From IMG/VR virus record IMGVR_UViG_3300014502_000005, positions 1 through 64,000 of that record: a DNA stretch of 64,000 nucleotides; one strand, written 5' to 3'. Under the pieces are notes generated by a model. It was not told where the DNA came from. It made no database searches and was given only the letters and a program-made list of their open reading frames with translations. Each line of letters starts with the position of its first letter. The first letter of the stretch is position 1. This stretch comes from a virus. Made by a program: the position numbers and the translations under genes. Positions 1-63,979 of the stretch are shown one piece after another.

Positions 1-108
1 TAGCGGATTAAATAGTAATAACTTATCAAATTAGTAGAATGAATATAGAAAGCACAGAACTTCAAAACGGCACGGAAACCGCTATTGGTTATATACCCAA
101 CGTTAAAT
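1..108 (-). other. attC-like recombination site, cut by window start
   Basis: On the minus strand the last bases of the neighbouring gene run into ATTTAAC, which fits the integron R'' box RYYYAAC, and the gene's TAA stop (103-105) lies inside the box. Inner stem bases TAGCGG (1-6) pair with CCGCTA (79-84), and the following bases 85-101 should pair with DNA just left of the window. The same arrangement is seen in the three complete sites at the right end. Only half is visible, so this call rests on the stop-in-box pattern and a 6 bp stem. Confidence 0.5.
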
Positions 109-336
109 TAATTCCACTGTTTTGTATTTCAAAAAGTAAATCGCCTCATCGTCGTTAGGTGAAAATTCTAGTAATTCCAGATAGTCTAAAAAGTCTTTTC
201 TTTGGGGCCTACTCAATTCTTTAATAAGGTTCATACATTGAGTGTTTTGCCCGTTAATCTTTGAATTTAAAATGTGATTAAAATAATCGTCAGTACTTTT
301 AAATCCGTAGTCTGTTAGATCGTGTTTGCTTATCAT
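103..336 (-). CDS. hypothetical small protein (77 aa)
   Basis: No family recognised. The frame is open to a GTG at 378, but the ATG at 336 is preferred: it lies one base past the TGA of the upstream gene (338-340), giving tight coupling without overlap. The protein is acidic and likely helical, with no membrane segment. It is the last leftward gene before the attC-like site, and its TAA stop is part of the R''-like box, as for the cassette genes at the right end of the window. Confidence 0.6.
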   Translation of the reverse strand: MISKHDLTDYGFKSTDDYFNHILNSKINGQNTQCMNLIKELSRPQRKDFLDYLELLEFSPNDDEAIYFLKYKTVELI

Positions 337-15183: not shown

Positions 15184-15791
15184 AGGTAGCTGTATTATAT
15201 AGTGGAGCTTTAAGGACTTGGGACGAATGTAGGGAAAACCAAATAAATAACATTCTTACAGAAGGAGTAGATTCGTATTTTTATACAGACGAAGAGCCGA
15301 AAGGAATAAAATATACACAATACGTACAAATACCAGAAAGGTATTATAACGAAATAGACCATAGGTATGATGCGGATAAAAATCCAATAACTAATACTTC
15401 TAATACGCTAGGGATGTGGCATAATATGTTTGTAGGATGGTGTTTAGTGCCTAAAACTTATGATGTTTATGTTAAATCCAGATGTGATATAATACTGTCC
15501 CAGAAGATAAATTTTGAACTATTCGATGTAAGCGGTAATGATATTTATATCCCAATTGAAGGAGATTTTTGTGGTGGGGTAAATGACCGTTTCGCTATTG
15601 GAAATTATGAAATAATGAAAAAGTATTTCAGTATTTATATAGAGCACCAAAATCTTTTTCAGTCAGGGCTAACTTTTCATACAGAATATTATTTAACAGA
15701 AAACTTGAAAAGAAAAGGAGTTAATATTATAAGATTCAGTATAAAAGATACAATAATAAGAGGTGAACCAAGTAAAAGAAACGTGGCATGA
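15180..15791 (+). CDS. glycosyltransferase-like protein, GTG start
   Basis: 203 residues. The only start consistent with its frame is GTG at 15180, overlapping the previous TGA (GTGA). AVLYSGALRTWDECRENQINN, YVKSRCDIIL (DxD-like Arg-Cys-Asp) and GGVNDRFAIGNYEIMKKY match a family of small GT-A-like proteins found in polysaccharide loci. No activity is proven. ATGA overlap to the next gene. Confidence 0.6.
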   Translation: MKVAVLYSGALRTWDECRENQINNILTEGVDSYFYTDEEPKGIKYTQYVQIPERYYNEIDHRYDADKNPITNTSNTLGMWHNMFVGWCLVPKTYDVYVKSRCDIILSQKINFELFDVSGNDIYIPIEGDFCGGVNDRFAIGNYEIMKKYFSIYIEHQNLFQSGLTFHTEYYLTENLKRKGVNIIRFSIKDTIIRGEPSKRNVA

Positions 15792-17367: not shown

Positions 17368-17885
17368 TGGAACATATTAATGAAAATTTTATTGGTTGGT
17401 TTACTTATCCTCGTATTTATAAAGATATGGTGGAAAAATTCCCGTCGGGAAGTAATTTTGTCGAGATCGGGACTTATCATGGCAGGTCGTTATCTTATTT
17501 GATCGTTGAAATGATTAACGCTGGTAAAAGTTTTAATATTACTGGAGTTGATTCTTTTACTTTTGAAAAACAACTAGAGACGTTTGAGGGAAACATGCAG
17601 CCTATAATAGATAAATTCGACGTAATAATAGATCAGAGTTGGAACGCAGATAATTATTTTGATGACGAATCTATTGATTTTGTGTTTATTGATGCTGATC
17701 ATGTTTATGAAAGTGTTAAAAAAGATATATTAGCTTGGTGGCCTAAAGTTAAAAAAGGTGGTATTCTAGCTGGGCATGACCTGTGTTCAGAGCATATTGG
17801 GGTAGAACAGGCGGTAGTTGAAATTTTCGGTAATGATTGGGATAAAATTTATTTAGATGAACTTTGTTGGTTAATGAAAAAGTAA
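17367..17885 (+). CDS. class I SAM-dependent methyltransferase
   Basis: 172 residues, Methyltransf_24-like. NFVEIGTYHGRSLSYL (29-44) is the SAM-binding glycine motif, ITGVDSF the acidic end of strand 2, and SIDFVFIDADHVYESVKKDILAWWPKVKKGGILAGHDL the D-A-D-H signature of small O-methyltransferases. A likely target is a sugar or headgroup hydroxyl made by the neighbouring enzymes. Shares one base with the previous gene's stop. Confidence 0.85.
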   Translation: MEHINENFIGWFTYPRIYKDMVEKFPSGSNFVEIGTYHGRSLSYLIVEMINAGKSFNITGVDSFTFEKQLETFEGNMQPIIDKFDVIIDQSWNADNYFDDESIDFVFIDADHVYESVKKDILAWWPKVKKGGILAGHDLCSEHIGVEQAVVEIFGNDWDKIYLDELCWLMKK

Positions 17886-17886
17886 A

Positions 17887-18870
17887 ATGAATAAAATACC
17901 AGTAATATTAGAATATCCAGATCAAATATCTTCTGTATGCTCTTTTTGGAGGTCAAGAGGCGTATTGTCTGAACTTGCAAAAGAAGGCCACATAGGGTTA
18001 ATAGAAGGTCAATGGGATGATAATTGGACAACTATACGTTCATGTGACATTGCCTTTTTTCAACGGCCAATGAACAAAGATTGTCTGAACCAAATAATGA
18101 AATGCAAAGACTTAGGATTAAAAATTTGGATGGACTTTGATGATACTTTTGAAATCCCCCCATCCCACGAAGTTTATGATTTATGGACTAAAATATTTGA
18201 TGAAAAAGTATTCTTTAAAATGTTAATGTTAGCAGACGTAGTAACAGTTACTACAGAAAATTTAAAGAATTTTTATCTGAAATATTCAAATGATGTTGTT
18301 GTAATTCCAAATGCTATAAATGATAAATTTCTTAAATTTAGAAGGCCATCAAATAATAAAGTAGTCTTAATAAGGGCTGGTAAACATCACTTACCTGACA
18401 TATGGGAGTATAAAAATGAGATTATACAAGTAATGAATAATCACCCCGATTGGAAACTAGTCGTTTTAGGGTGTGAAATTAAGTTCTTGTCAAACAAAAT
18501 TAAAAACTATGAATATGGAGGAGATTTTGATATTCACCAATATTTCGGATATATTCTAACAACCCAACCATCTATTTTTATAGTACCTTTATTAGACAAT
18601 GAATTAAATAGGGGAAAATCAAATATTAGTTGGCAAGAAGCTACGTTGTGCGGAGCGGTGTCTTTAGTCCCAGACTATTGGAAATTAAAAAAGTATTCGG
18701 GAACATATAAGGACAAAAAAACGTTCAAACAATATTTTGAAGAACTTGTGTTTAACAAAGAATTAAGAATTGGATTATACAACAATTCTTTAAGTAAAGT
18801 TAAGAAGGATTTTTTATTATCAAAAGTAAATAAACAAAGATTGCAAATAATTAAAAATTTAATGAAATGA
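17887..18870 (+). CDS. GT-B-fold (family 4-like) glycosyltransferase
   Basis: 327 residues. The N-domain includes WMDFDDTFEIPPSHEVYDLW. The hinge VVTVTTENLKNFYLKYSNDVVVIPNAIN is typical of GT4 enzymes, and the C-domain has LVVLGCE and the acceptor-loop region SNISWQEATLCGAVSLVPDYW, where E-A-x-L-C-G-A replaces the usual E-x7-E pattern. Soluble or peripherally membrane-bound. Overlaps the next gene by 4 bp. Confidence 0.8.
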   Translation: MNKIPVILEYPDQISSVCSFWRSRGVLSELAKEGHIGLIEGQWDDNWTTIRSCDIAFFQRPMNKDCLNQIMKCKDLGLKIWMDFDDTFEIPPSHEVYDLWTKIFDEKVFFKMLMLADVVTVTTENLKNFYLKYSNDVVVIPNAINDKFLKFRRPSNNKVVLIRAGKHHLPDIWEYKNEIIQVMNNHPDWKLVVLGCEIKFLSNKIKNYEYGGDFDIHQYFGYILTTQPSIFIVPLLDNELNRGKSNISWQEATLCGAVSLVPDYWKLKKYSGTYKDKKTFKQYFEELVFNKELRIGLYNNSLSKVKKDFLLSKVNKQRLQIIKNLMK

Positions 18871-19643: not shown

Positions 19644-20296
19644 GAAAAGAAGATGTCGAAATTAAGTACTTAATGTACGACCCGTTTGATCCTAGATCAG
19701 TAGCTAAATTAGAATCATACGAAGAGTTTAATGTAGATTTTGGAGTAGCCAAAAGTAAGGTTGTTTGTTATATAATACTTTGTTACGACCTTAATACCCA
19801 ATTAAGGAAGGAGGTTCCTTATTTTAATAAGCGTAAATTAGTAGCCGCTGAACTTGCCGGATTCGATCAAGCTAAAGACGGGAAGTTCAAAAAAAATTAT
19901 GAAGATATATTACTTGGGTTAAACGAAAAGGCTAATACAGCTATATCTAAATACATCCGATTGTTTGCTTCTCCTAAATATTTATCTCTTGTATATTATT
20001 GGTCTATTCTTTCAGCAGAGTTTGAAAATATAACAAGTATCAAGGAATCAAAGGATTATAAAAATACTATTGGTAATATTGAAAAATTAGAAGCTAAAAT
20101 AAATGAATGTGTCGAGTTCCTATACGGAGGAGAAGAGGTTAAGGATATTCGTCGAGCATTATATGAAAGTGTTGAAAAAGAAAATTTAAAACTACGGCCA
20201 GAACATATTGCTATGGCCGAAAATGTAGATGAACTTTTAGAAAATCCTTATGGTGATTATAAGCCAGAACCATTAAAATATAAAGGAAGTAAATAA
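19640..20296 (+). CDS. conserved pre-terminase protein, small terminase candidate
   Basis: 218 residues. DPRSVAKLESYEEFNVDFG, NKRKLVAAELAGFDQAKDGKFKKNYEDILLGLNEKANTAISKYIRLF is a pattern I associate with a conserved protein just ahead of the large terminase in Bacteroidota phages. Helical throughout, charged C-terminus. Position and size fit a small terminase subunit, but no DNA-binding motif is obvious. Confidence 0.6.
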   Translation: MRKEDVEIKYLMYDPFDPRSVAKLESYEEFNVDFGVAKSKVVCYIILCYDLNTQLRKEVPYFNKRKLVAAELAGFDQAKDGKFKKNYEDILLGLNEKANTAISKYIRLFASPKYLSLVYYWSILSAEFENITSIKESKDYKNTIGNIEKLEAKINECVEFLYGGEEVKDIRRALYESVEKENLKLRPEHIAMAENVDELLENPYGDYKPEPLKYKGSK

Positions 20297-20297: not shown

Positions 20298-20483
20298 ATG
20301 AAAGCGAAAGTTATTGAAAAGGATAAATTTGAATATACACATAACGGATACGATCTGGCCGAAAACTATCTGAGATGTATCGGAGAATGGAATAGAATAT
20401 CTAAAAATGGAACTTGCGAAAGTAAAAGGTTTATAGTTAGTCAGGCAAATTTAATTTATAGTAAACTAAACAGGATAAAATGA
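20298..20483 (+). CDS. hypothetical small protein (61 aa)
   Basis: Not recognised. Sits between the pre-terminase gene and the terminase, overlapping the terminase ATG by 4 bp. Basic, helical. May be a packaging accessory by location only. Confidence 0.65.
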   Translation: MKAKVIEKDKFEYTHNGYDLAENYLRCIGEWNRISKNGTCESKRFIVSQANLIYSKLNRIK

Positions 20484-22777
20484 ATTATTTAGAGGTCGAC
20501 GATAGTTTTATATTCAATATTGGTCATCCATATAGGTATGAGCCAGACCCTTCTTTAGTTCCCATAAGGATAAGTTTACCGAAACCTCCTTCTTTAGAAT
20601 TAATAGCTGGATATGGCCTTGATCCATTAGAACAAAAATGGGCACGACCGGAAATCCCTTTTAAACTAACTCAATTAGAAAAAGAAGTTAAAAGAGATTT
20701 AGAATTAAGATTAAGCTCGAATAAGAATGAACGTGTCACAGGATATAAAGTATTAGATGAAATTTGGAAAAGAATAGAAGACAATACAGAATATTACGCT
20801 GAAGAAATTAAGTTCATTAAACAAATGTGGTGGTATCGTATTTATGGTTATTGGTTCTTTTGTAAAGGCAAACCAACATATATATGTGGGTGGCATTTTT
20901 TCTTTTTAACATTCTGGAAAATAGATGGTTCATTTTATCCAGAATACAGAGACGTTGATAGAAGAGAGCTTTTAGCGTGGACTTATTTTAAAGAAACTAA
21001 AGAAACTTTTAAGAATTTAGATGAAAAGGGAAATGCTATTATAAATAATAACGGAGAATACGAAATAGAAGAACTTAATTATAATACATTTTTTGGGATA
21101 GCCGAAGCCAAGGGAAGACGTAGAGGAGTATCTAATAAAGCGCAATCATCTCAATTTGAAGTTATAGCTAAGAAAAAGTCAGCTCTTGGGGTTATATTTT
21201 CTATGACTGAAGATAGTGCTAACAAACTATTCACTAATATAACAGTTCGCGCATTTAGGCAAATACCCTTTTTCTTCCTTCCTACATGGGATGGATATTT
21301 TGAACAATCTAAAGAAGTTTTTTTTAATAAGCCAAAAAACATAATACTTGGTGATGATCTACAGAGTAGAATTACTCACGCTGAATCTGCTTATGGCGGT
21401 GAATTTGACGGCATGAAAATAGACATGGCTGTATATGATGAGGAGGGGAAAACCAGATCCGTAGACATAACAAAAAGATGGAATACACATAAGCGGGCTT
21501 CGGCATTAGGGCCACGTATTTTAGGATTTAGCTTTCATGTATCAACAACAGAAGATTTGGATGTCGATGGAGGCAAGCATTTTCAAAAAATGATTTATTC
21601 TTCTAGTTTTTATAACCGAAATGAAATAAATGGCCAAACACCTACAGGATTAGCTACTGTATTTTTCCCTTCTTATGATGGATATGAAGAATGTATAGAT
21701 TATTGGGGATATAGTGTAATAGACTATCCTACAGAAGAACAAATAAAATATGGGTATAAATTAAAATATGGAGCTAAAAAGATACTACAAAGTGAACGGG
21801 ACGCTTTATTAAATAGTAAAGATTTAAGAGACAAAGTTGAGTACCGAAGGCTAGTAGTTAAATTCCCTTTTACCTTAGACGAATGTTTTCTACTTACAGT
21901 CGGAGGCACAAGTGTCGACCTTGATATCATAAATAAAAGAAATGCTGAACTTAGGCGTATAAAAGAGCCTTTTGTAAGAGGAAATTTTGAATGGGCCTCA
22001 GAAAAATATGGCAAGGTATATTTTTTGCCTTCAGACGAAGGAAGATGGGAGATAAGTAAATTATTAAATCCAGGAGAAACTAATCTCAAAGTCCTAACTC
22101 AATTTTATGATGAATTTAACGGGACTATAAAAGATGTGTGGATGCCTAAGTATCCAAACAAATTTACAATGGGGGTTGACCCATTTGATTTTAAGGGAGA
22201 TAAAGAAATGGCCCTAGATACTGGATCAAGAATGTCAGATGGCGGAATTGCTGTTTATTGGGAAAGGGATTTATCCATAGACCCAGAAGATAAAAATATT
22301 TATGAATGGGAGTCTTCAAGATTTGTAGCTGTTTATAGAAGTAGGCCGCTTTCTCATATATTTGATGAAGACGTACTAAAGGCCGCTATTTATTATGGTG
22401 CCATGATATTCCCGGAAACAAACAAAGGTAATATTTGGAAATATTTTACAGTAACTACAAATTTTGATGGTTACTTATTATATGAATATGATGAAGCTAC
22501 CTGTAAATATAAAACAAGGCCTGGAGTTTATCAACTAGAAAAGTCCAAGCAAGATATTTGGGATTGCTTTAGGAACCATATTTCATTTAGAGGACATAAA
22601 GAATGCCATAGTTTATTATTAAATGAAATAGCTGCATTAAAATTATTTGAAGACTTAAATAGGAATGACTGTGCCGCTGCTGCTGGGTGCGCTTTGCTTG
22701 GATCTAAAAGTAGGGCAAGACAATCGTTAGAATCAATAGATGATATTGGAAGCTATGACTGGTGGAAGGCTATGTGA
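20480..22777 (+). CDS. terL: terminase large subunit
   Basis: 765 residues. The ATPase half has a diverged Walker A (AEAKGRRRGVSNK near 209-221), Walker B with catalytic Glu (IDMAVYDEEGK near 313-323), and SALGPRILGFSFHVSTTED as a coupling-motif candidate. The nuclease half has TMGVDPFDF (Asp near 567), MIFPETNKGN and a late Asp in LNRNDCAAAAG, consistent with an RNase H-type nuclease. The long N-terminus (about 200 residues) is typical of Bacteroidota phage terminases. It cuts and pumps DNA into the prohead through the portal. Confidence 0.92.
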   Translation: MNYLEVDDSFIFNIGHPYRYEPDPSLVPIRISLPKPPSLELIAGYGLDPLEQKWARPEIPFKLTQLEKEVKRDLELRLSSNKNERVTGYKVLDEIWKRIEDNTEYYAEEIKFIKQMWWYRIYGYWFFCKGKPTYICGWHFFFLTFWKIDGSFYPEYRDVDRRELLAWTYFKETKETFKNLDEKGNAIINNNGEYEIEELNYNTFFGIAEAKGRRRGVSNKAQSSQFEVIAKKKSALGVIFSMTEDSANKLFTNITVRAFRQIPFFFLPTWDGYFEQSKEVFFNKPKNIILGDDLQSRITHAESAYGGEFDGMKIDMAVYDEEGKTRSVDITKRWNTHKRASALGPRILGFSFHVSTTEDLDVDGGKHFQKMIYSSSFYNRNEINGQTPTGLATVFFPSYDGYEECIDYWGYSVIDYPTEEQIKYGYKLKYGAKKILQSERDALLNSKDLRDKVEYRRLVVKFPFTLDECFLLTVGGTSVDLDIINKRNAELRRIKEPFVRGNFEWASEKYGKVYFLPSDEGRWEISKLLNPGETNLKVLTQFYDEFNGTIKDVWMPKYPNKFTMGVDPFDFKGDKEMALDTGSRMSDGGIAVYWERDLSIDPEDKNIYEWESSRFVAVYRSRPLSHIFDEDVLKAAIYYGAMIFPETNKGNIWKYFTVTTNFDGYLLYEYDEATCKYKTRPGVYQLEKSKQDIWDCFRNHISFRGHKECHSLLLNEIAALKLFEDLNRNDCAAAAGCALLGSKSRARQSLESIDDIGSYDWWKAM

Positions 22778-23861: not shown

Positions 23862-26228
23862 ATGAATTTTGCGGAAAAGTATCAAAGAGAAGCTATTCAA
23901 TTCCCAAGTAGAAATATTGACCCAAAATTAAAGTTACTAAAAGACTTTGGCATAAAAATGTGCCAGGCAATATATTCTAGCTATGTAGGTGATAAAGCTT
24001 CATTCCCCTATTCTTTATTATCATATTATAATGAAGTTCGTCAATATTCAGATGGTAGGCAAGATCCTTCTAAATACGAAGAAAGATTAAATCCAACAGA
24101 GAGCGCAAACGGGAATATTGTAACCTCTAGTTTTGATGGAGACTGGACAAGTAAGCAAAGTAAAAGAAAAGGATTAGGCAATCTAAATAGAGAAATATTA
24201 AGTCTTGGTCCCAGAATAATGCAAGCCATACTTGGAGCTTTCAAAGACGTTGATTATAATTTAATTGCTGATACCATTGATCCTGATTCTGGATATGAGC
24301 AGGAAATGAGTAAAAGTGCTTTATATGCAGAATCTCAGCATTTGGATTTTTTAAATATGATGAAGCAGGGAGCTGGAATTCCTGTTAACACAGACACTAA
24401 ATACCCTAAAGACTTAGATGAACTACAGTTAATGGAAGATTTAGGCGAGTTTAAAACCGGAATATCTAAAGCTCTCGAAAAATTATTAAAACATACTTAT
24501 GAGATTTCTGACTGGGAAAATACTAAAGATAAACTTATAAAAGATATTGTAAATTTTAACGCAATATGCCTTCATGATTATTATGATGAAGAAGAATGTA
24601 AGTGGAAAACAGAGTATGTTGACATAACTCGTGTTATTGCCCAATATTCAGATAAAAGAGATTATTCAGATTCTTGTTATTATGCTGTAGTTAGAGAAAA
24701 AACAGTTTCAGAGATAAGACATAAATTAGAAGGATTAGACTATTCGGAAGAACAATTAAGCCAATTAGCACAAAATTGGAGTGGCCAATTAGGCAATCCG
24801 GTACAAAGCGAATGGAATAGTTTTGCCCAAAAAGATAATTACGGAAATTGGTTATATGACTTTTTTAAATGTCTTGTTTTAGAAGCAGAATGGATTGATA
24901 GCGATATTGATTATAAAACAGTAAATGTAAGTAGAAGAGGTATAAGGACTATTTATGATCAGGATTTCGGGAAAATAAGGAATACGGATCATAACAAAAC
25001 TAGGACTACTACTATTAAAAGGAAATATGAAGCTAAATGGATTTTAGGCTCTGACCTTATTTATGATCATCAAATAAGTCCAAGCCAACCAAGAGATAAA
25101 AGCAATAAAAGGCCATTAATGTCTTTTCATATATATAATGGTACAGAATTAGCTATTACCCAGAGGTTAATTCCTATATTCGATCACTTTCAGATAACAT
25201 GGCTTAAACTTCAAGAGGCATTAGTAGAATCTTTTGGAGAGATATTATTACTAGACCAGACAGTTTTAGACAGGATAAAAATGGGCGGGGAGACTTGGGA
25301 CACCCTTAAGTTGCTAAAACATGCCAAACGGACACATGTTCTTCCTTTTAGGTCTCTGCCTATGAATGGAAAATATGGCGGAGGGGCAGTTAAGCCTATA
25401 GATATAATCCCTTCAACTATCATGAATAGGATAGACGAATCTATTAAATTATTCGAAAATTGTATTCGAATGATCGAGATGATTACCGGAATAAATCCTG
25501 TCTCTTTGGGGTCTCAACCGAATAATGAGGCCGGCAAGGCAACTACCGAAATGGCTTTACAGAACACAACTAAGATATTAAGGCCTATTATAGATGCCAT
25601 TTTCCAAGTCAAAGAAGATTCTGCCGAATTTTTATCTGAGGCCTTGCGCTTAGGGTTGCGTAACGATAAAGATTGTCGCGAAGCCTACATGAAAGTAGTG
25701 GGACGAAATGATGTAGAAGCATTAGTTAAAAGTGAATATGAAGCTAGAGAATTAGGTATAAAATTAATTCCAAGGCCGAATACTGAAGAACTCCAGAGTT
25801 TATACAGGGATATAGAAACAGCTTCTATGCCAGGGAAGGACGGAAGGCCATTAATAAGGTTTGACGTTAAACTATATATTAAAGAAAAATTAATGCATGG
25901 GGCTAATCTTAGTGATATTAGGCTTTATTTATCTAATGCTATAGACAAAGAAATAGATAGACAAGAAAAATCGGCTAAAGAAAATAGTCAAAATCAAGGA
26001 CAAGTATTACAACAACAAGAACAAATAAAAGCCCAAGGAGAAGCTCAAAAAATACAATTAGAAACTCAGGCTAAGATAGCAATATCAAACAACGAACATC
26101 AAAATGATATGGAACTAGAAAGTCATAAACAGTTTCATGAAAAATATATTAAAGGTCAAGAAAACGAGATGAAACAACAAGAATTAAACCAAAAACAAGA
26201 TGCCGGACAACAACCCACAACAGCTTAA
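23862..26228 (+). CDS. portal protein
   Basis: 788 residues, the size of crAss-like and related portals. Assigned from position after terminase and from the conserved stretch LPMNGKYGGGAVKPIDIIPSTIMNRIDESIKLFENCIRMIEMITGINPVSLG followed by a long helical ALQNTTKILRPIIDAIFQVKE, as in portal crown and wing regions. The last 90 residues are Gln-rich coiled coil. It forms the dodecameric vertex ring for DNA entry. Its end overlaps the next start by 29 bp. Confidence 0.85.
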   Translation: MNFAEKYQREAIQFPSRNIDPKLKLLKDFGIKMCQAIYSSYVGDKASFPYSLLSYYNEVRQYSDGRQDPSKYEERLNPTESANGNIVTSSFDGDWTSKQSKRKGLGNLNREILSLGPRIMQAILGAFKDVDYNLIADTIDPDSGYEQEMSKSALYAESQHLDFLNMMKQGAGIPVNTDTKYPKDLDELQLMEDLGEFKTGISKALEKLLKHTYEISDWENTKDKLIKDIVNFNAICLHDYYDEEECKWKTEYVDITRVIAQYSDKRDYSDSCYYAVVREKTVSEIRHKLEGLDYSEEQLSQLAQNWSGQLGNPVQSEWNSFAQKDNYGNWLYDFFKCLVLEAEWIDSDIDYKTVNVSRRGIRTIYDQDFGKIRNTDHNKTRTTTIKRKYEAKWILGSDLIYDHQISPSQPRDKSNKRPLMSFHIYNGTELAITQRLIPIFDHFQITWLKLQEALVESFGEILLLDQTVLDRIKMGGETWDTLKLLKHAKRTHVLPFRSLPMNGKYGGGAVKPIDIIPSTIMNRIDESIKLFENCIRMIEMITGINPVSLGSQPNNEAGKATTEMALQNTTKILRPIIDAIFQVKEDSAEFLSEALRLGLRNDKDCREAYMKVVGRNDVEALVKSEYEARELGIKLIPRPNTEELQSLYRDIETASMPGKDGRPLIRFDVKLYIKEKLMHGANLSDIRLYLSNAIDKEIDRQEKSAKENSQNQGQVLQQQEQIKAQGEAQKIQLETQAKIAISNNEHQNDMELESHKQFHEKYIKGQENEMKQQELNQKQDAGQQPTTA

Positions 26229-38827: not shown

Positions 38828-41800
38828 GCGAAAAAGATATAAAAACATTTGGCGATATTTATCTGGATACTGATTCTGATCCAAAGATTAATAAAGGATC
38901 AGATTATGTATTAAATACAATAATACAATCAGATGGAAGATTTGGGGTAGCTGTAAATATAAAAGGTAACAAAGTGGTTACAGACCAATCTTTATTAGAT
39001 TCTATTTTTGTAAACCCAGACAGTTCTCCGATTAGGGTAATAGGATCGTGTAAAGATGAAGCTAGGAATAGGATTATATATTTTCTTTGTAATTCAGTAT
39101 CAGGGCATTTTAGTTCAGCCATTTTTTATTATGATATTTCTAATGGAGACAATAAGGTTATTTATAGCGATACAATTGATTTAACTAATTTAGATGAGCA
39201 TAATCATATAGGCGATAATTTTTTTCTTTTCGGATTAAATCAAACAGTTAGACATTGGGAAGGATTGGCTGTAGCCCCGAATGGAAATATTTATGCAGCC
39301 GCACAAACCGGAGATATATATCTACAAACTAATGGAACTGGAGATTTTGTAGCAACTGGCCAGACAACAAGAAATTGGCAACAAATGGCAGCCACTTCAA
39401 GTGGTAATATATATGCCGTAGCCATGAGTGGCGATATTTATATGCAGACTAATAGTACAGGTCAATTTGTATCTTTAAATCAAACAACTAAACATTGGGA
39501 AGCTATATCTATAGCTCTAAATGGAGATATATATACAATAGGGTACGGCGATATTTATAAACAAACTGGAGGCACCGGTAATTTTGTTGCATTGAACCAA
39601 TTATCTAATGTTTGGACAAGTATATCTGCCTCTCAGAATGGAAGTGGCAATATTTATGCCGTTAGGGTTGGTGTAGATATTTATATGCAAACTGGAGGGA
39701 CAGGAGATTTTGAGGCATTAAGCCAAGGCTCTAAACTATGGACAGGAATAGTTGTTGCCCCGAATGGTAATGTGTACGCAACAGCGATGTCTCATGATGA
39801 CATATATATGCAAACTTCAGGAGCTGGAAGTTTTGTTGGACTCGGAGACACAAGCCATAATTGGACTTATATAACAGCAACTTCAACTAATAATATTTAT
39901 GTTGTTACAGACAACGATGCTATTTATATGCAAACTGCCGGAACTGGGGCTTTTGTAGATTTAGCCGTTACGTCTAAAGCATGGAATGGAATAGCTGCGG
40001 CTCCGAATGGCAATGTATATGCGATTGCTTATAACATTAGCGGCGAAGATATTTATATGCAAACTTCTGGAACTGGTGATTTTAACCCATTAAGCCAGAC
40101 GCATAGGGATTGGGTTTCTATAGCTGCAGCTTCTAATGGAGATATATATGCAACTACATTAACAGGGGCTACTTATAAACAAACCGGAGGAACTGGTAAT
40201 TTCATAAGCCTAGGCGATACTTCTGATATGTGGATGGGCATAACTGCTGCCCCAAATGGGAATGTGTACGCTTCTGTTTACAATGGAGACATTTATAAAC
40301 AAACTGCCGGAACTGGTAATTTTGTAGCGTTAAATCAGACATATAGACAATGGACGCACATGGCCGCTGCGCCAAATGGCAATATATATGCATCCGTATT
40401 TGGAGGAGATATTTATATGCAAACAGCCGGAACCGGAGCTTTTATTGCATTAAGCCAAACAACTAGAAATTGGCAGGGATTAGCCGCCGCTTCAAATGGA
40501 GACATATATGCAGCTGTCCCTTTTGGGGACATTTATTTACAAACTGCCGGAACTGGTAATTTTGTGGCATTAAATCAAACAGTAAGATATTGGAACGCCA
40601 TGGCTGTTGCTGCCAATGGAAATGTATATGCGGATGTTATTGCTGGCGATATTTATACAAACATATTTAATTATGTATATGATGACGCAAAGGCTCTTAA
40701 TTTTAGCTACGATTCATTTATAACCGCCAATACAATAGGAGATTTATTATACTGGACAGATGGATTAAACCCTCCAAGAAAACTAAATTATATAAAAGCG
40801 TATAATCTTATTAATAACATAACTACTGACTATAAATATAGCACATTGTCAGTTGATATGATTGAGGCATATAAGCGGCCCCCTACTGAAAAAATAGGAT
40901 TGACATTATTAACATCTGCGAGCGAAATTCCCATTCGTAATAAAATATATCAATTTGCATATCGTTATGTTTATGATGATTTTGAAAAAAGCGTGTTGTC
41001 TCCATTTTCAGATGTAGTATTTTCGGATATAACAGCTTTTGCCGACGGAACTGTAACTTCTACATCAAGTATTTACGGAGTAAATCTGACTTTAAAATTA
41101 TATTATACGACAAATGGAACTTGGAATGATGTTGATTCGATAGAATTATTTGTTAGAAATAGCGATAAAGGCAATTGGTATTTATATGACAAAATACCTA
41201 ATCCTAAAAATGGATCAGGAGATACATTAACTTACTTGTTTAAAGACGATAAAATAAAACAAGAAGTAGATCAGGACGACCTAGGAAGACCATTTGATTT
41301 TTTGCCAAAGTTGGCAGGAACTCAAGAAATGATTGAGAAAGACAAGTTGATTTATGGGGATATTACGGAAGGGTTTGATAACATAGGTATAAATATAAGT
41401 TCTGTTGTTAATTTAACATTTGCCCATTTTGATGTGGGAGGCGGAACGGTTAGCACTATAGTTCCAAGGACTATTTCGTTGAAATTTCAAACATATGTTT
41501 CGGGATATACCTATAGCCTTATTTTAAAAATAGATGTAAAACAAACAGGAGCAAGCCCTAGAGATATTAGTACTAAAACAGTTAAGATAATATATAAAGC
41601 AGTTCCAGGGTCTACTGAATCGTCTATTTTGGCTAATATTAGGAATTTAATAAATGCTAATTTAAATTCAAACGTATTGGGATATAGTCGGGTGACAAAT
41701 TATGGTTCTGGAGTTAATTATATTGAGATGCCTATCGACTTTCTTACAAATAGTTCTCCTCCTACACATGAATATAGAGATATAAGTGATGTAAAGTCTT

Positions 41801-57793: not shown

Positions 57794-57892
57794 TTTCAAA
57801 ACAATCTTTAAAAACTTTCCGATTTTAGTGTATCAATTGACTTATAATCAATTCAAATTTAGTACTTACGTATATATAGTAGTTATGTGGCA

Positions 57893-58327
57893 TTAAAAGA
57901 GCCACGCTTTGACAATTTCGTATAGGTTTAATTTTAAGTGATACGAATTAATTATCACGAAAACTCCAAATACAAGTCCGATAACTGAATTTACCCAATG
58001 TAATGCCGTATATGCTGGGCTAAATTTAAACAGCTTACTTATTGGAGCTATTGCAATAAAATTAAAAGCAATTATCGCAATAAAAGCAACCCAATTAAAA
58101 GTTAATAAACCTGCAAACATCCATAAGGTAAATAGTAAACTTGGAAGTCCTCGACTAATTAAAACGTCTTTGTAATCTTGCGGATATTCATCCCACTTTT
58201 TGCCTTTGTTTTGCTTATTAAGCTCTTTAAATTTTTTAGATTTTTCAGTGTATTCAACTGGGCTTATTAGCCAAAGAACTTCATGTATTATAAAGCAAAT
58301 TCCGATAAAATAAAAAATGTGTTTCAT
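57893..58327 (-). CDS. four-span membrane protein, cassette gene B
   Basis: 144 residues from the ATG at 58327 (MKHIFYFIGICFIIHEVLWLI); an in-frame TTG at 58357 is less likely. Spans near 3-20, 58-75, 79-98 and 112-132. Not assigned to a family. Its TAA lies in GTTATGTGGCATTAA (57882-57896), the complement of the cassette-start box at 58366-58375, so it behaves as one integron cassette. No typical phage link. Confidence 0.7.
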   Translation of the reverse strand: MKHIFYFIGICFIIHEVLWLISPVEYTEKSKKFKELNKQNKGKKWDEYPQDYKDVLISRGLPSLLFTLWMFAGLLTFNWVAFIAIIAFNFIAIAPISKLFKFSPAYTALHWVNSVIGLVFGVFVIINSYHLKLNLYEIVKAWLF

Positions 58328-58365
58328 TGTTATAATTTTTAAGTTATTAATATTCAATAATTAAC

Positions 58366-58504
58366 GCCACATAACCCGCGGTCATACGCAAAACGGGGTT
58401 TCCGTTCTCGTTGGATAAGGTATCTGTTTGCAAAGTGTCGTTCATCGTATTTAGTTTATCTGTTAATAATCCCCGTTCAGCGCATACCGCCACCGTTATA
58501 GGGC
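58366..58504 (-). other. attC-like site 1 (between cassettes A and B)
   Basis: Minus-strand order: R''-like CCCTATAAC (58503-58495) at the stop of gene A; stem arms CGGTATGCGC...ACGGGG (58489-58471) and their imperfect complements CCCCGT (58398-58393) and GCGTATGACCG (58389-58379); R'-like GTTATGTGGC (58375-58366) that begins cassette B. Length 139 bp. The arms are imperfect in the way attC hairpins are. Cassette A begins with GTTATAGGG at 58724-58716, the complement of this R''. Confidence 0.65.
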
Positions 58505-58699
58505 ATTTAAAACAAGCTTCGGTTCAAGTTCAGTAAATGCCTCGACTGTTATACCTTCTTTTAATTGCCATTCAGCATCATCATAGTATTCAATAGAATA
58601 CACATAATTGTTATAAACTTTAATTATGCACATATAATGAATACCATTGTAATTAGGCTCATTTTCTGGATATTTTTTAAAAACTTCATTTATATTCAT
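58496..58699 (-). CDS. hypothetical protein (67 aa), cassette gene A
   Basis: Begins MNINEVFKKYPENEPNYNGIHYM, SH3-like or beta-rich small protein, not recognised. Its TAA (58498-58496) is inside the R'' box of the attC-like site. The cassette start GTTATAGGGTGT lies 14 bp upstream of the ATG, typical cassette compactness. The 5' side, next to the NinG-like gene, lacks a complete attC. Confidence 0.7.
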   Translation of the reverse strand: MNINEVFKKYPENEPNYNGIHYMCIIKVYNNYVYSIEYYDDAEWQLKEGITVEAFTELEPKLVLNAL

Positions 58700-58754
58700 A
58701 ACTTAAAAATAAACACCCTATAACAATAGGTCATAAAACAGCAGGGCGTATTTG

Positions 58755-59216
58755 CTATTCGTAACCTTTTGCATCTAATTGATGTAGTCTTTCTCGATAT
58801 TTGTTTTTTAAATATCCTTTCTTTTGAAAAAACAAATCCCAATTTGCTGTATATTTATGGTCTTCATTATAAGCTTCTCGATGATCAGAATCCCCATGGT
58901 CTAATAGCCTATGTTCCTCTGGAGACATAAGCATGATGTTTTCTTCTTCTATTATAAATAGAGGGTAATTTTTTTTATCTAGTACATGCGCGAACAGCCA
59001 AATAAAAAAAGGTGTATTGTAGTATTTATCTAAAGGCCCTCCGCTTAATTCTGACACGTGAGGCCTAGTATTCCATATTTGGTCAAATAATGCTAATTGG
59101 CCTGTATTCTTAGGAAGGATGACTTTTTTAATTTTAGGCTTCCATTTGTAATGAAACTTACAAATACCATGACTGAAAACAGGATTGCTACAATTTGGAT
59201 GAGTGCAAATTTTCAT
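58755..59216 (-). CDS. NinG/HNH-like nuclease
   Basis: 153 residues. A zinc-type start (CTHPNCSNPVFSHGICKFHY: C-x4-C and C-x2-H), then LFDQIWNTRPHVSELSGGPL, FFIWLFAHVLDKKNYP, and ENIMLMSPEEHRLLDHGDS, the RPHVS..SG, HVL.K..YP, N..L and EH..LD order of NinG-like phage recombination nucleases. It would act on DNA junctions in recombination. Start overlaps the upstream stop by 4 bp. Confidence 0.75.
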   Translation of the reverse strand: MKICTHPNCSNPVFSHGICKFHYKWKPKIKKVILPKNTGQLALFDQIWNTRPHVSELSGGPLDKYYNTPFFIWLFAHVLDKKNYPLFIIEEENIMLMSPEEHRLLDHGDSDHREAYNEDHKYTANWDLFFQKKGYLKNKYRERLHQLDAKGYE

Positions 59217-59542
59217 TTAATAGCTGGTCTATGATAACAACTATAGGTAGGCATTAAATCTGATCCTAATCTTATTTCATGATATAAGATAGGGCTTATA
59301 TTAGTAATTGTGATGTACTTATCTTTATCTATATTTAATATCCCCCACAAAATACCGTCTGAAGAGATTAAAAAATCGGATATATGTATTGGAGCATCTA
59401 GTTTTATTTTTAATGTATATATCCATTTTACTTCCGGAATTATTTTGAATATTTTACAAACTATACGTTGAATGAAAGTCAAGTTTAATACCTTAACTAT
59501 ACCTTCGGTATTTTGATAAGTTATTTTAAAAATGTTTTCCAT
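59213..59542 (-). CDS. hypothetical protein (109 aa)
   Basis: Not recognised. Predominantly beta-strand with two basic patches. Separated by 6 bp from the small membrane protein upstream and coupled (ATGA) to the NinG-like gene. Phage early-region type. Confidence 0.6.
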   Translation of the reverse strand: MENIFKITYQNTEGIVKVLNLTFIQRIVCKIFKIIPEVKWIYTLKIKLDAPIHISDFLISSDGILWGILNIDKDKYITITNISPILYHEIRLGSDLMPTYSCYHRPAIK

Positions 59543-59548
59543 AAATAT

Positions 59549-59839
59549 TTAATTTTTATTTATTGGTTTAAAATTATCAATGTTAATTTTATTTATGTTA
59601 ATCAAATCGTCACTAATCAGTCCTTTTCTAAGTAAAAATTTAACTTTCCATTTAACAACATCTCTTTTAGCTTTACTTAATTTACTTGTCTTATTTTGAA
59701 TCAATTTATATTCCTGAATGACATCGAGAACGTCTTTGTCTATTTCTTGTTTTTGTTCTATTTGTTCCTGTTTTGGTATCAACCAAAATACGGCGAATAT
59801 TACGCCCATTGCCGTTATTAATAGTAGAAACGTCGTCAT
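59549..59839 (-). CDS. small single-span membrane protein (96 aa)
   Basis: N-terminal membrane span (residues 3-22, TFLLLITAMGVIFAVFWLI) followed by a Lys/Gln-rich helical cytoplasmic part. Not assigned. 2 bp from the upstream gene stop, so same operon. Confidence 0.65.
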   Translation of the reverse strand: MTTFLLLITAMGVIFAVFWLIPKQEQIEQKQEIDKDVLDVIQEYKLIQNKTSKLSKAKRDVVKWKVKFLLRKGLISDDLININKINIDNFKPINKN

Positions 59840-59841
59840 AT

Positions 59842-60024
59842 TTATTTTAATAAAATGTTAACTCCTCGTTTTTTTGGGATTACTTTTCCTAGTACTTCTT
59901 CTATTTCTTCGTTTGTAACACATTCGTGCTTGTTACAAAGTCCAACTTTATAATTATTAGTATCTCTAATAATAGTGGCTTTACTTAAGCAATAAGCACA
60001 AAGTTCCTTAGTTATTTCTAGCAT
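59842..60024 (-). CDS. small zinc-finger protein (60 aa)
   Basis: C-A-Y-C at residues 9-12 and a later C..H..C (LCNKHECVT) form a treble-clef-like four-ligand site, as in short phage zinc-finger proteins. Not assigned to a reaction. Overlaps the upstream gene by 7 bp. Confidence 0.65.
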   Translation of the reverse strand: MLEITKELCAYCLSKATIIRDTNNYKVGLCNKHECVTNEEIEEVLGKVIPKKRGVNILLK

Positions 60025-60245
60025 TTAAATAAATCTTGTATAGTTACTTTTTCGCTTTCGGGAGCTATCTCCCATTCTAAAAAGTCTTTTTCAGTTACTT
60101 CTACAGGGCAAACAGGACTTAGCCCGTATCTTTTAGTGCTTAGGATAACGCCTGTTTCGAAAAACCCTTTAAATATTCCTATTTTGCCTGTTTTAGGGTC
60201 AATAACCTTGGCGTTATAGGGGTCTTTTAAATCTTTTATTTGCAT
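60018..60245 (-). CDS. hypothetical protein (75 aa)
   Basis: Not recognised. Starts MQIKDLKDPYNAKVIDPKTGKIGIFKGFFETGVILSTKRYGL, an SH3/KOW-like strand order. First gene after a 68 bp gap that holds a palindrome (60298-60311). Confidence 0.6.
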   Translation of the reverse strand: MQIKDLKDPYNAKVIDPKTGKIGIFKGFFETGVILSTKRYGLSPVCPVEVTEKDFLEWEIAPESEKVTIQDLFKC

Positions 60246-60297
60246 TGATTTTTATTCAAAGTTAAATAGTATGTGGGTAATAATAAAATAATAAGAT

Positions 60298-60311
60298 ATG
60301 TTGTGCAACAC
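60298..60311. promoter_or_regulatory. ATGTT-N4-AACAT palindrome, copy 10 (one mismatch)
   Basis: ATGTT gtgc AACAC, one base off, in the gap between the ATP-grasp stop (60314) and the small gene start at 60245. Right-half variant, so weaker than the others. Confidence 0.4.
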
Positions 60312-60313
60312 TT

Positions 60314-61597
60314 TTAGAATTTAAGTCCTATTTTTTCTGATTTATCTAGTTCTTCTTGCACTTTATCTAGTATTCTTGTATTAAACACAAGATCATGTCC
60401 TTTAATTTGTTCTACGCATTTAATTATCTTTTTATAACAATCTTCTAGCGAATCTCCAGCAGCGACTATGTCTAACGCTTCTGAAGATTGAGAAGGCTGA
60501 GGAATTAGGTAATACGTTCCTTTAGATTTCATTCCAAAACGAAACTTAACGTTATTTCTTATTTCTTCTGGGAAGTAAATGGGCAAAAAATTTTCTCTGA
60601 GGAAATCTGAATTACCAATTAGGATCACTCCATATTCATGAGTAAATTCAGGTTGAATTAAAATACCTTCTGCCCCAGACCAAATTATTTGGGCTAAGTT
60701 TTTTATCATTATTAATTGTAATGACAAGGGGGGTGCTCCGGCCCTACAGGTCTGATCTATAACGTAAGGGACTTTCTTTTTATCTATCCTAATTTCATTA
60801 GAATAAAAGTTACAATATTGTTTTTCCTTAAAATACCAAGACAAATTATCGGTACATAATTTTATTGGTTTTGGCAATTTAGCGTATTCAAATACTTTTG
60901 CTGCATAACATTGGTCCTTAATCTCGATACCGCTCAATACCTTGTCAGGTATTTGGCCGTCTATAATAATAGTATCTATACCAGTTTCTACAATACAATC
61001 AACAGGAGTTTCTACAATAAATTCTGTTATCTCTTTTATGGCCCCTAGCTCATTTTCAAGATGAGTTAATAACGGTTCTGATAGTTTATAGGTATCGTGC
61101 TTAAAACTCTCAAACAAACCTCTCCAATGGGATATTTTAATATAAAGTTTATCATGTGATTTTAAGTATTCTTTTAATTTAGTTATGCCTTTTATTTTGA
61201 TGGTTTTATTTACAGGCATATTGCTTTTGGTCATTATTCTTTTAGAATCATATCGATCTAATTCTAGCCATTGGCCTTCGCCAGAACCAAACACCCGCTT
61301 ACCCATAGATCGAAGCAATCTTTCTATGTCCGAAAAGTAAAGTTCGGGGAAAATGAAAATATCAACTTTATCGAAATTGTAGTCTGAATTTTTATCTGAA
61401 GTAGAAAATAAGTAATCAATAGAATTTATTTCTTCAAATCCTACGCCAGATAATTCAGGAAATCTATCGGGGAACCCTCCGTAATTCCAAGGTGTAAAAT
61501 AGTAAACTTTTTGGAATAATTTAGATAACGTGATAGCTAATTCTACGAACAGGCCGCAATCACAAACAACGGCTATTTTATTTTTTAAATTTTCCAT
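60314..61597 (-). CDS. ATP-grasp (PurD-like) ligase
   Basis: 427 residues. N-terminal Rossmann-like part (KIAVVCDCGLFVELAITLSKLFQKVYYFTPW), then VFGSGEGQWLELDRYDSKRIMTKSNMPVNKTIKIKGITKL, the G-x-G-x2-x-LE-x-DR-x-x-(A/S)K pattern of ATP-grasp enzymes such as GAR synthetase, a loop Lys near residue 155, and metal region GILIQPEFTHEYGVIL. It would join an acid and an amine using ATP. The substrate in a phage is unknown. One base overlap with its upstream partner. Confidence 0.75.
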   Translation of the reverse strand: MENLKNKIAVVCDCGLFVELAITLSKLFQKVYYFTPWNYGGFPDRFPELSGVGFEEINSIDYLFSTSDKNSDYNFDKVDIFIFPELYFSDIERLLRSMGKRVFGSGEGQWLELDRYDSKRIMTKSNMPVNKTIKIKGITKLKEYLKSHDKLYIKISHWRGLFESFKHDTYKLSEPLLTHLENELGAIKEITEFIVETPVDCIVETGIDTIIIDGQIPDKVLSGIEIKDQCYAAKVFEYAKLPKPIKLCTDNLSWYFKEKQYCNFYSNEIRIDKKKVPYVIDQTCRAGAPPLSLQLIMIKNLAQIIWSGAEGILIQPEFTHEYGVILIGNSDFLRENFLPIYFPEEIRNNVKFRFGMKSKGTYYLIPQPSQSSEALDIVAAGDSLEDCYKKIIKCVEQIKGHDLVFNTRILDKVQEELDKSEKIGLKF

Positions 61598-61977
61598 TAT
61601 ATTTCATAATTTTCGTAATAATCACTCCATTCCAATCCCATCTCATAACATAATTGCCTTTCTATATTTTCAGCAAAACGATGTTCTCGACGATATATGC
61701 AATCTGGCTCATTACCTGCATCGTCTGCCTTTCCGCCAACTTCTTGAACCTTTCTATCAAACGCATCTATGTCCTCCTCTTTAATCCCTCTCATATTTGT
61801 CAAGTGTTGTTCTATCATCTCGTGAAGTGCAATTAGCCAAGCATGATCATAAGAGGCTTCATCTTTTAAGTATGCCTTAATTATTATAACATCTTTATTT
61901 ACAAAATAGTAGTCTCCAATGCCGCCATTTCTTATCTCATTAGGATTATTTGTAAATTGTATACGTATTTCTTTCAT
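61597..61977 (-). CDS. HExxE zincin-like protein (126 aa)
   Basis: Residues about 44-58 read DHAWLIALHEMIEQHL, with His-Glu-Met-Ile-Glu in the place of the HExxH helix and additional Glu/His nearby (RREHRFAENIE). It may be a small metallohydrolase or a metal-binding relative. Shared start/stop base with the ATP-grasp gene says the two act together. First gene of the pair. Confidence 0.55.
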   Translation of the reverse strand: MKEIRIQFTNNPNEIRNGGIGDYYFVNKDVIIIKAYLKDEASYDHAWLIALHEMIEQHLTNMRGIKEEDIDAFDRKVQEVGGKADDAGNEPDCIYRREHRFAENIERQLCYEMGLEWSDYYENYEI

Positions 61978-61996
61978 CTAGCAAAGGTATGTATTT

Positions 61997-62515
61997 TTAT
62001 ATTGGATTTATGCACCCAAAAGTTTCTATCATTATCCTGTCTATAGACCAATGCAAAGTCTGGCCATCTTTATGTAAGTGTAAAAGGTTATTAGTAGGTG
62101 TTTTTTTAGATCCTTTCATTAAGATTGTTTTGCCTGATTTCCTTTTTATCATTCTCGTCATACTTCTTACGTTTCTTAGTGTAGAAACTTGATAATATCC
62201 TTCATAGCCAGGAATATCTTTCCAAGTTTCCTTTAGGATATTTTTTAAGTTTTCTATGTCTTCCGAATCCTTAGCATATAAGCTTGTCATTGCAATAACC
62301 TTTTTTATGGCTGCGTTTACAGAAGTTCGAGTTCTTCCTGCTAATTTTAGCCCTATCTCATCGTTTGACCCAACCTTAAACGCCTTACATAAAAACATTG
62401 CTTTTTGTCGGGCCTGGACTATTTCTCCTTTTTTTGTGGGAATGTTCAGCTCCCCAGGAACCATATTAAAGTATTTTTCAACTTCATTTTGTATTTTATC
62501 TATAGTTACTATCAT
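61997..62515 (-). CDS. DnaA domain IV fused to NUMOD4-type domain
   Basis: 172 residues. Residues 1-78 match the DnaA C-terminal DNA-binding domain: IDKIQNEVEKYFNM, EIVQARQKAMFLCKAFKVGSNDEIGLKLAGRTRTSVNAAIKKV is the signature R-x-x-A-x-x-L...IG...GR-x-x-[TS]-V. Residues 98-119 (WKDIPGYEGYYQVSTLRNVRSM) are a NUMOD4 module as in HNH homing nucleases, but no HNH follows. Could be a phage regulator or origin-binding protein. Confidence 0.8.
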   Translation of the reverse strand: MIVTIDKIQNEVEKYFNMVPGELNIPTKKGEIVQARQKAMFLCKAFKVGSNDEIGLKLAGRTRTSVNAAIKKVIAMTSLYAKDSEDIENLKNILKETWKDIPGYEGYYQVSTLRNVRSMTRMIKRKSGKTILMKGSKKTPTNNLLHLHKDGQTLHWSIDRIMIETFGCINPI

Positions 62516-62624
62516 AAATTAATATTTAAGTTTTTGATCACAAATCTTTAAAATTTAATCGTGCACAATATTAATATTTAAATAATTATATGTAAAATTT
62601 TATATATAATAGTTATGTGTAACC

Positions 62625-63023
62625 TTAAACGGCTACCGTGGATAGTCTTTCCTTAATCTGATTTGAGTTCAATATTTCGTCAAATCTAATAATAGAATCA
62701 ATCATCCATTCATAACCACAAAAACCAGCAGAGTTTTTTCTTCTTTTATTGGCTTCTTTGGCATCAACTTGTTCAATCCTAACATTTGCACCCCAACCAT
62801 CACCAAAGTTATAATAATGGCTTTTACTTGGTGGAGTATTACCAATTTCTCGTCTGGTAAAAAAGCCTTCATAAATCGGACTTGTTTTAGCATCTTCCAT
62901 TATTTTGTCAGCAGTTTTATTGTCGAACTTTCTAATAACAAAATATTTGCGTTCTGCGCCTGTCCATTTACCATTCCAACTACCTACATTTGGCATCGTT
63001 AATTCAAAAGATAATGTTTTCAT
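62625..63023 (-). CDS. hypothetical protein (132 aa), cassette gene C
   Basis: ATG at 63023 (MKTLSFELTMPNVGSWNGKWTG). Patterns SWNGKWTGAERKYFVIRKF, FGDGWGANVRIEQV and CGYEWMIDSI are typical of an uncharacterised cassette-borne protein family in environmental bacteria, from memory only. Its TAA is in GTTATGTGTAACC (62612-62624), complementary to the cassette start box 63072-63061 with one mismatch. Confidence 0.7.
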   Translation of the reverse strand: MKTLSFELTMPNVGSWNGKWTGAERKYFVIRKFDNKTADKIMEDAKTSPIYEGFFTRREIGNTPPSKSHYYNFGDGWGANVRIEQVDAKEANKRRKNSAGFCGYEWMIDSIIRFDEILNSNQIKERLSTVAV

Positions 63024-63060
63024 TTTTATAGTTTTAAGTTATTGATAATCATAATAAAAG

Positions 63061-63198
63061 GCTACACATAACACGCAATATAGTGCATGTGGGCTGTATC
63101 GGTTATTGAAAGTTTCTACATTCTATTATCGTTTGTGGTGGTTTGATAGGTCGGTGCTATTAATCCCACACGACACCATATTGCCACCGTTAGCGGTT
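63061..63198 (-). other. attC-like site 2 (between cassettes C and D)
   Basis: Minus-strand order: R''-like AACCGCTAAC (63198-63189) overlapping the stop of gene D2; stem arm 63184-63165 imperfectly complementary to 63093-63075 (GCAATATAGTGCATGTGGG on the plus strand); R'-like GTTATGTGTAGC (63072-63061) starting cassette C. Length 138 bp. The R'' is the exact complement of the cassette D start at 63892-63883. Confidence 0.7.
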
Positions 63199-63561
63199 AT
63201 TAAGCCAGCCATACACCAACCTGCGAAATTCTGCATCTGATTGTGTGCATCGTAATTTTTGAACATCTAATTTAGATAAGTCTGGACAATAAGCTGTTAT
63301 TAATGCTTTCCAGCAATCCCTATAAGTTTGAGCCTTTGCATGAAATTTTATAGAATGTTGTTCCAATTTAGCTGTATCTCCAAGTTCATCGTATTTTCGT
63401 TGAAGTCCCTGCCAACTATTAATAAGTTCTTCAACTGCTTTTATTCGCAATTGCTTATTTAGTTCATTTATTTGCTCAGAATAACTAAGTTCAGACGTAT
63501 CACAATTAACATCCGCCTTAATAGGCGTGTACCTTGTATTTTTAAGTTTGTGCGTTCCCAT
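63190..63561 (-). CDS. hypothetical protein (123 aa), cassette gene D2
   Basis: ATG at 63561. Charged helical protein (ELNKQLRIKAVEELINSWQGLQRKYDELGD), two Cys in the C-terminal part. Its TAA is inside the R'' box of attC-like site 2. Paired with D1 (8 bp gap), so the two genes ride in one cassette, a layout often used by toxin-antitoxin or other two-component modules. No such function is proven. Confidence 0.65.
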   Translation of the reverse strand: MGTHKLKNTRYTPIKADVNCDTSELSYSEQINELNKQLRIKAVEELINSWQGLQRKYDELGDTAKLEQHSIKFHAKAQTYRDCWKALITAYCPDLSKLDVQKLRCTQSDAEFRRLVYGWLNNR

Positions 63562-63569
63562 AAATTTAA

Positions 63570-63854
63570 TTATTTAAAATATTCACACGTTTTACAAAAG
63601 TTTTTACTCTTAACAAAGCGACTGCACGCAGATTTATATGGCCAATTACAGATTTTTATTTTAGTAATATCTCCATTAAACCTCCAAATCTGCTGCATGT
63701 GGTCAAACCAAATCTGTATATTATCAACAGAATAATTGTTTTTTACGCAATATTCATCTATTTCACTTATAGTTGGTTCTTTATCAGTCATGCCTTCAAT
63801 CCACATCTCATGCGGTTGAGTTCTATATGTTACATTTTCATCTTGTATATTCAT
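63570..63854 (-). CDS. hypothetical protein (94 aa), cassette gene D1
   Basis: ATG at 63854 (MNIQDENVTYRTQPHEMWIEGM), preferred to a TTG at 63884. Contains CxxCxYF at the end (FCKTCEYFK) with further Cys (KICNWPYKSACSRF), so a small metal site is likely. First gene of cassette D, 26 bp after the cassette start box. Confidence 0.65.
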   Translation of the reverse strand: MNIQDENVTYRTQPHEMWIEGMTDKEPTISEIDEYCVKNNYSVDNIQIWFDHMQQIWRFNGDITKIKICNWPYKSACSRFVKSKNFCKTCEYFK

Positions 63855-63879
63855 AATATTTTGATTTAAAATAAATAAT

Positions 63880-63979
63880 AACAACCGCTAACACCGTATA
63901 TAAAACATGGCTTGACAGGTTCGTGCTTACTTGAAACATTCGAGCAAAGCCACGTTTCATATACGAACCGTTAGTTGCC
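63880..63979 (-). other. attC-like site 3 (between cassettes D and E)
   Basis: Minus-strand order: R''-like GGCAACTAAC (63979-63970); stem arm 63964-63945 pairing with 63914-63896 with only a few mismatches; R'-like GTTAGCGGTTGTT (63892-63880), the start of cassette D. 100 bp. The upstream frame (gene E) enters the window and stops with TAA at about 63981-63983, just outside this R''. Confidence 0.7.

Follow-up and report, generated by a model that had tools for sequence, protein, structure and literature searches.

attC-type sites, gene cassettes and a compact tyrosine recombinase of probable integron type in the right arm of a phage genome

Do the long inverted repeats that separate leftward genes near the end of a 64,000-nt stretch of viral DNA (the window, positions 1 to 64,000 of IMG/VR record IMGVR_UViG_3300014502_000005) delimit integron-type gene cassettes, and which enzyme might act on them? 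An earlier note, made from the window, had described three of these repeats as attC-type sites bounding cassettes in a phage arm, with no integrase nearby. The whole record of 76,236 bp was analysed here; the window corresponds to record 1-64000, and positions above 64000 are record coordinates. Judged by its terminase, portal and DnaB genes, the source of the record is a true phage, and its host is probably a Flavobacterium-type bacterium. The sequence comparisons described below make it very probable that this phage carries an integron of compact type, with one phage integrase and five attI-like sites (Table 1).

A search for TAAC..GTTA hairpins whose arms can pair returned ten strong full-length attCs, all of a single polarity and all in the right arm, and five Markov-shuffled versions of the record contained no hairpin of the same score. 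The three repeats are real attC-type sites, but their number was too low, the whole record holding ten full-length attCs plus one cut at base 1. A covariance model (R3), trained on 25 attCs from other phages (alignment A4) with this phage excluded, matched all three repeats and recovered 10/10 full-length attCs, all on the + strand. A model built solely from Flavobacterium chromosomal sites (R2) matched phage sites on the predicted strand throughout (best E 1e-15), including three sites of this phage just beyond the window (1e-8 to 3e-5); E-values of both models are rough. The cut attC was called truncated and on the - strand by R3, whereas its boxes indicate the + strand, and gene 103-378 (-) terminates within its GTTA box. 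Near copies of attC 2B are found at record 68434-68518 in the same phage and in locus L003.

Stem sequence varies among the 25 phage attCs while pairing is kept, with 15/21 pairs changed on both sides and a covariation score of 0.524, compared with 0.128 when shuffled (0/500) and at most 0.100 with partners slid. The flanks read TAAC-A in 52/53 and C-GTTA in 51/53 phage sites, and since TAACA and CGTTA are invariant on the top strand of 15 classical attCs (from two phage-borne integrons), the polarity of the phage sites is fixed. Folding, which the earlier note had proposed for the bottom strands, showed the bottom strand to be more stable in 47/53 sites, by a mean of 2.1 kcal/mol. In classical attCs the bottom strand likewise folds better. 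Folding strand alone mis-set the polarity of some sites, and box flanks and models decided. Phage stems are almost continuous; spacers of about 2 and 5 nt stay unpaired and the loop varies, and a consistent extrahelical base is absent from the aligned 25, whereas classical attCs (alignment A1) bulge at columns 31 and 35. A top-strand A.C pair (bottom-strand T.G) is fixed in 25/25 phage attCs, with a second such pair in 16/25. The folded hairpin of an integron attC, with R''/R' boxes, covarying stem and G|TTRRRY-type core, was thus found.

Some attCs are unusually built. At G010 63710-64059 and G014 19683-20048 (loci L048 and L054/L055), in unrelated phages, both attC arms (81 and 103 bp) are common and 94-95% identical, and the loop gene differs between the two; attCs with 190-470-nt loops also occur in G004, G009 and G011. 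An attC-like hairpin at L077 1064-1242, ~225 bp upstream of the Polaribacter phage Leef_1 integrase, received no confirmation from R3.

The rule that the box opening a cassette is complementary to the box closing it held at 313/440 positions over 44 cassettes of this phage and its relatives, against 168 +/- 9.4 positions for permuted cassette ends (maximum 210 in 20,000; z about 15). Both boxes of cassette 2B, called D in the earlier note, are exact complements, as had been stated. Pairing exceeds the classical 7 nt, usually with one A-versus-G position (bottom-strand G.T); integron box pairing past 7 nt, to 9-11 nt, is already known (PMC2727003). Several exceptions to the rule (G004, G011) proved to be long-loop attCs overlooked by the first scan. 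In the terminal cassette of array 1 the attC is short or degenerate, and a repeat search showed both boxes to pair as an inverted repeat. Stop codons had been placed in or beside the boxes; this was borne out in 10/50 cassettes, whose TAA is formed by the TTA of G|TTA read on the opposite strand; another 16-17 have their stop codon 11-14 nt from the box. Almost no cassette gene has a known-function match; by eye, cassette 4 of G003 and the last cassette here are methyltransferase-like. One cassette gene family (MCKIVVINRG.. / MCHIVVINRG..) is common to the arrays of this phage (G000) and G009, and the record's 3' end falls within a cassette.

The statement that no integrase lies nearby did not survive extension beyond the window, since a tyrosine recombinase gene with its own attI lies 2.7 kb beyond the end of the window. 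Among curated families it scores highest against XerA/integron-type (NF040815, 170 bits) and integron integrase (TIGR02249, 157 bits), and its AlphaFold2 model (predicted local distance difference test 85, predicted template modelling score 0.64) matches the XerA and IntI4 folds (PDB 5hxy and 4a8e among XerA/XerC-like structures). Close relatives (51-76% identity) are encoded on 18 viral contigs, and the catalytic residues R136, K161, H220, R223, H246 and Y255 are invariant in 18/18 integrases. Compared with IntIA, Shewanella IntI and IntI1, the phage integrases are missing a ~26-residue insert between catalytic-domain patches, in the I2 helix region. In all integrase relatives with enough flank, the start codon is preceded at 30-60 nt by [T/C]TTATATAT-nn-TA|GTTA or by a variant of this motif, and in all intact relatives this attI adjoins the integrase and the first cassette is joined at G|TT.

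Five attI-like sites occur in this phage, four clear and one degenerate, and a short array follows each of them. The upstream half of site 2 repeats, in pseudogenised form, the first ~20 integrase codons, as does that of copy 4, in a less preserved state. G009 and G011 have two attI copies each, as repeat units of ~83-94 bp that start in the same codons and end at the crossover G, between unrelated flanks, so that attI seems, from these repeats, to be a unit that moves or is copied. The second copy in G011 (43982, locus L051) is 94 bp identical and ends exactly at the crossover G, with ATG in place of TTA after it, as if joined to a secondary site. A search of viral contigs for the exact attI pattern gave a single match, in an unrelated phage, which was judged to be chance; with 2 mismatches allowed, control counts were equally high and the search was uninformative.

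Table 1. Positions of attachment sites, cassettes and selected genes; positions above 64000 lie outside the window.
Feature	Position	Strand	Details
Cut attC, 3' part	1..117	+ (by boxes)	at record start; ..CCCAACGTTA; R3 47.2 bits, E 7e-7
Terminase large subunit	20480-22777		
Portal	23862-26228		
attI-like site 1	57797..57885	+	crossover G 57882; divergent; TATATATAGTA|GTTA with distant CAATCTTTAAAAA block; position weight matrix score 20.4
Cassette 1	57883..58495	-	gene 57893-58357 (-), 154 amino acids (aa), membrane-like, weak Colicin_V match, reads toward attI
attC 1	58372..58498	+	R3 match 58369-58501, 35.7 bits, E 2e-4
Array 1 terminal cassette	58496..58765	-	opens GTTATAGGG, closes CCCTATAAC near 58715-58725
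attI-like site 2	62521..62615	+	crossover G 62612; TTTATATATAATA|GTTA; 78/92 identical to integrase-adjacent attI
Cassette 2A	62613..63189	-	gene 62625-63023, 132 aa
attC 2A	63069..63192	+	R3 match 63066-63195, 67.2 bits, E 3e-11
Cassette 2B	63190..63970	-	genes 63190-63561 (123 aa), 63570-63884 (104 aa); boxes GTTAGCGGTT / AACCGCTAAC
attC 2B	63889..63973	+	R3 match 63886-63976, 58.2 bits, E 3e-9
Cassette 2C	63971..64601	-	crosses window end; gene 63971-64432
attC of cassette 2C	64481-64604		
Integrase	66709-67521	-	270 aa, tyrosine recombinase, Phage_integrase match
attI 3	G at 67552		integrase-adjacent, three attCs
attCs of attI 3 array	67830-67953, 68434-68518, 68774-68897		
attI 5, degenerate	G at 72499		two attCs
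attCs of attI 5 array	72730-72845, 73443-73530		
attI 4	G at 75000		one attC
attC of attI 4 array	75393-75515		
Cytosine methyltransferase-like cassette gene	75525-76235 (L001:18526-19236)		cut by record end

Relatives of this phage were gathered via integrase, DnaB and one flanking gene, a terminase scan of IMG/VR having found no close relative. At least 15 further viral contigs, of which three have terminal repeats, show the layout seen here. Presence or absence of cassettes in related phages, a comparison called for by the earlier note, was found, with differences ending at box boundaries. The sister phages L121 and L122 (82% identical, related to this phage) are alike in their flanks. The stretch between these flanks measures about 5.2 kb in L121, where the models detect eight attCs, and about 1.1 kb in L122, where they detect three; from the last box onward the two are homologous again, and their array occupies the position orthologous to site 5 of this phage. 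In G003 and G010, homology runs up to the attI crossover and again past the array, and the cassettes between differ. Cassettes thus vary at the G|TT junction in both comparisons (L121, L122 and G000 site 5; G003 and G010). Five contigs end less than 1 kb from attI on the array side (168, 172, 347, 659 and 952 nt before the integrase match), compared with about 0.6 expected by our own estimate. This excess would be compatible with mixed populations, but assemblies also break at repeats.

Gene direction in these arrays was compared with that in Flavobacterium chromosomes. In 11 loci (L028, L111-L120) of sampled Flavobacterium-genus genomes, a ~350-aa compact integrase is followed by an attC array of the phage attC family, and L117 (20 attCs), L120 (14 attCs) and L111 are long chromosomal arrays beside such an integrase. 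The largest open reading frame (ORF) reads toward attI in 50/52 phage cassettes. A gene reading from the attI side to attC, the classical criterion, was seen in 2/52 phage cassettes and in 44/46 Flavobacterium controls; because the controls show the classical direction, the phage inversion is not an artefact of polarity assignment. Through the inversion, the phage genes run the same way as the integrase and the leftward operon. A related compact integrase was found in 78/150 sampled genomes of the Flavobacterium genus (the host genus of L028), and none of 11 Flavobacterium genomes tested had an integron integrase over the curated cut-off, their best matches being compact enzymes with the same profile gap. 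These counts suggest a large unrecognised integron class, which searches requiring a canonical IntI would therefore miss.

Several observations weigh against assigning the locus to integrons. The 157 bits of the integrase are well under the TIGR02249 cut-off of 265 bits; the missing insert is IntI-specific and held to enable single-strand action (PMC7790495); relatives at 35-39% identity are annotated plain 'integrase' in other phages; and a model of 15 gammaproteobacterial (Vibrio and Shewanella) attCs gave a best match of 14.4 bits (E 1.7), not significant, and was dropped as a detector, being too narrow with its 15 attCs. In addition, L121 and L122 (partial contigs), G017 and P12002L have attC-family sites and no detectable integrase in the available sequence; the enzyme therefore need not be encoded in cis and may sometimes come from elsewhere. 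These arrays without an integrase, the relatives labelled integrase and the frequency of related enzymes in the sampled host genus are also what would be expected if the arrays were attC clusters moved by a Flavobacterium-type host integrase, with the phage recombinase an ordinary lysogeny integrase beside attI. We regard that account as unlikely, because the attI family stands at the start of the phage integrase in every intact relative, the extra attI copies contain the 5' end of the integrase gene, and host arrays have the reverse gene polarity.

Ordinary homologous recombination between similar hairpins, with site-specific activity long dead, would explain why some attC arms are 91-95% identical in unrelated phages with different genes between them. 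Most stems, however, differ in sequence and still pair, a sign of selection for structure; the integrase is undamaged and retains every catalytic residue; and junctions track G|TT and not stretches of identity, so that little weight is given to this explanation. Least credible of all, to the point of being nearly negligible, is that the hairpins are terminators, folded RNAs or repetitive extragenic palindromic (REP)-like repeats and the box matches by-products. The hairpins are indeed palindromic, intergenic and flanked by co-directional genes, but an Rfam search of the window gave no match (RF01725, considered as a possible attC family, is a SAM riboswitch family), box complementarity is higher across a cassette (7.1/10) than within one hairpin (4.0/10), and sister-phage arrays differ up to the boxes.

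For the phage-borne compact integron, we infer that this enzyme recombines these sites, that bottom single strands are used, and how the genes are expressed. The phage-made 270-aa recombinase would act in trans on the five attI-like sites across the leftward arm, taking a circular cassette by the bottom strand of its attC, folded into a hairpin, and joining that strand to attI at G|TT; cassettes would leave through attC x attC recombination. The small accessory genes, their stop codon often in the crossover box, would fit into the leftward transcription unit, making an attI promoter unneeded.

Classical integrons (class 1 with IntI1, the Vibrio superintegron with IntIA) share with this phage the R''/R' boxes, G|TT, TAACA..CGTTA polarity, bottom-strand folding, an attI beside a tyrosine recombinase, and one or two small genes per cassette; the phage differs in its insert-less integrase, in G.T wobbles for extrahelical bases, in inverted cassette genes and in having several attI sites per genome. 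Flavobacterium chromosomal arrays share the insert-less integrase family, the attC family and the extended box rule, but there the integrase, which carries additional N-terminal residues, is followed on its 3' side by the array, and the genes read in the classical direction. XerA/XerC-like recombinases are alike in giving the top family score and top fold match, and unlike in that the gene here is tied to attI and attC arrays; we are aware of no cassette arrays associated with Xer enzymes. On balance we lean towards a separate integron lineage of Bacteroidota and their phages, in which the integrase would lack I2, G.T wobbles and not extrahelical bases would mark the strand, phage genes would be turned, attI of ~85-95 bp would be dispersed, and one enzyme would serve several arrays.

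The earlier note suggested that cassettes could give phages a new means of exchanging accessory genes; this is partly anticipated, since Qi et al. 2023 (PMC9892861) described integrons and attC clusters in phage genomes, together with a Shewanella prophage with two attI sites and one attC of Polaribacter phage P12002L that IntI1 recombined, bottom strand only. The P12002L sites are of the same family as those here; the R3 match at 39119-39248 (E 2e-7) may differ from the attC recombined in that work. Alike in having attC sites and cassettes in phage genomes, the phages of Qi et al. had complete integrons with a host-type IntI in temperate phages, or were virulent and without integrase, and no compact integrase was described. 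What appears new, and is absent from the earlier note, is the combination of compact integrase, multiple attI and inverted cassettes: compact integrases with attC arrays, Flavobacterium chromosomal integrons and systematically inverted cassettes were unreported in the literature searched, which covered few subscription papers and preprints. The I2 helix is thought to have let integron integrases shift from double- to single-strand recombination (PMC7790495), and for IntI1 deletion of the extrahelical bases abolishes attC x attC recombination (PMC2727003). Here dozens of attC arrays accompany a family without the insert and, in the phage sites examined, without extrahelical bases, and the I2-helix idea therefore becomes directly testable; for phages, such a system would be a cassette-level route for exchanging accessory genes.

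Elsewhere in the record, the terminase matches those of Flavobacterium and Cellulophaga phages distantly (23-28% amino acid identity among the matches listed), and the DnaB helicase gene lies beyond the window end. In L121 (12632-13750, G000 orientation) the DnaB gene contains a ~1.1 kb insert that is missing in L122 and is possibly an intein or homing element. Family matches at window 12570-18870 include a HAD hydrolase (12570-13937), a galactosyltransferase (13927-14748, weak) and a glycosyltransferase (17887-18870). At window 4767-6081, where ORFs are few, long A+T-rich inverted repeats, up to 95% complementary, are clustered around AAAAACATGTTGTTTAACATAT.

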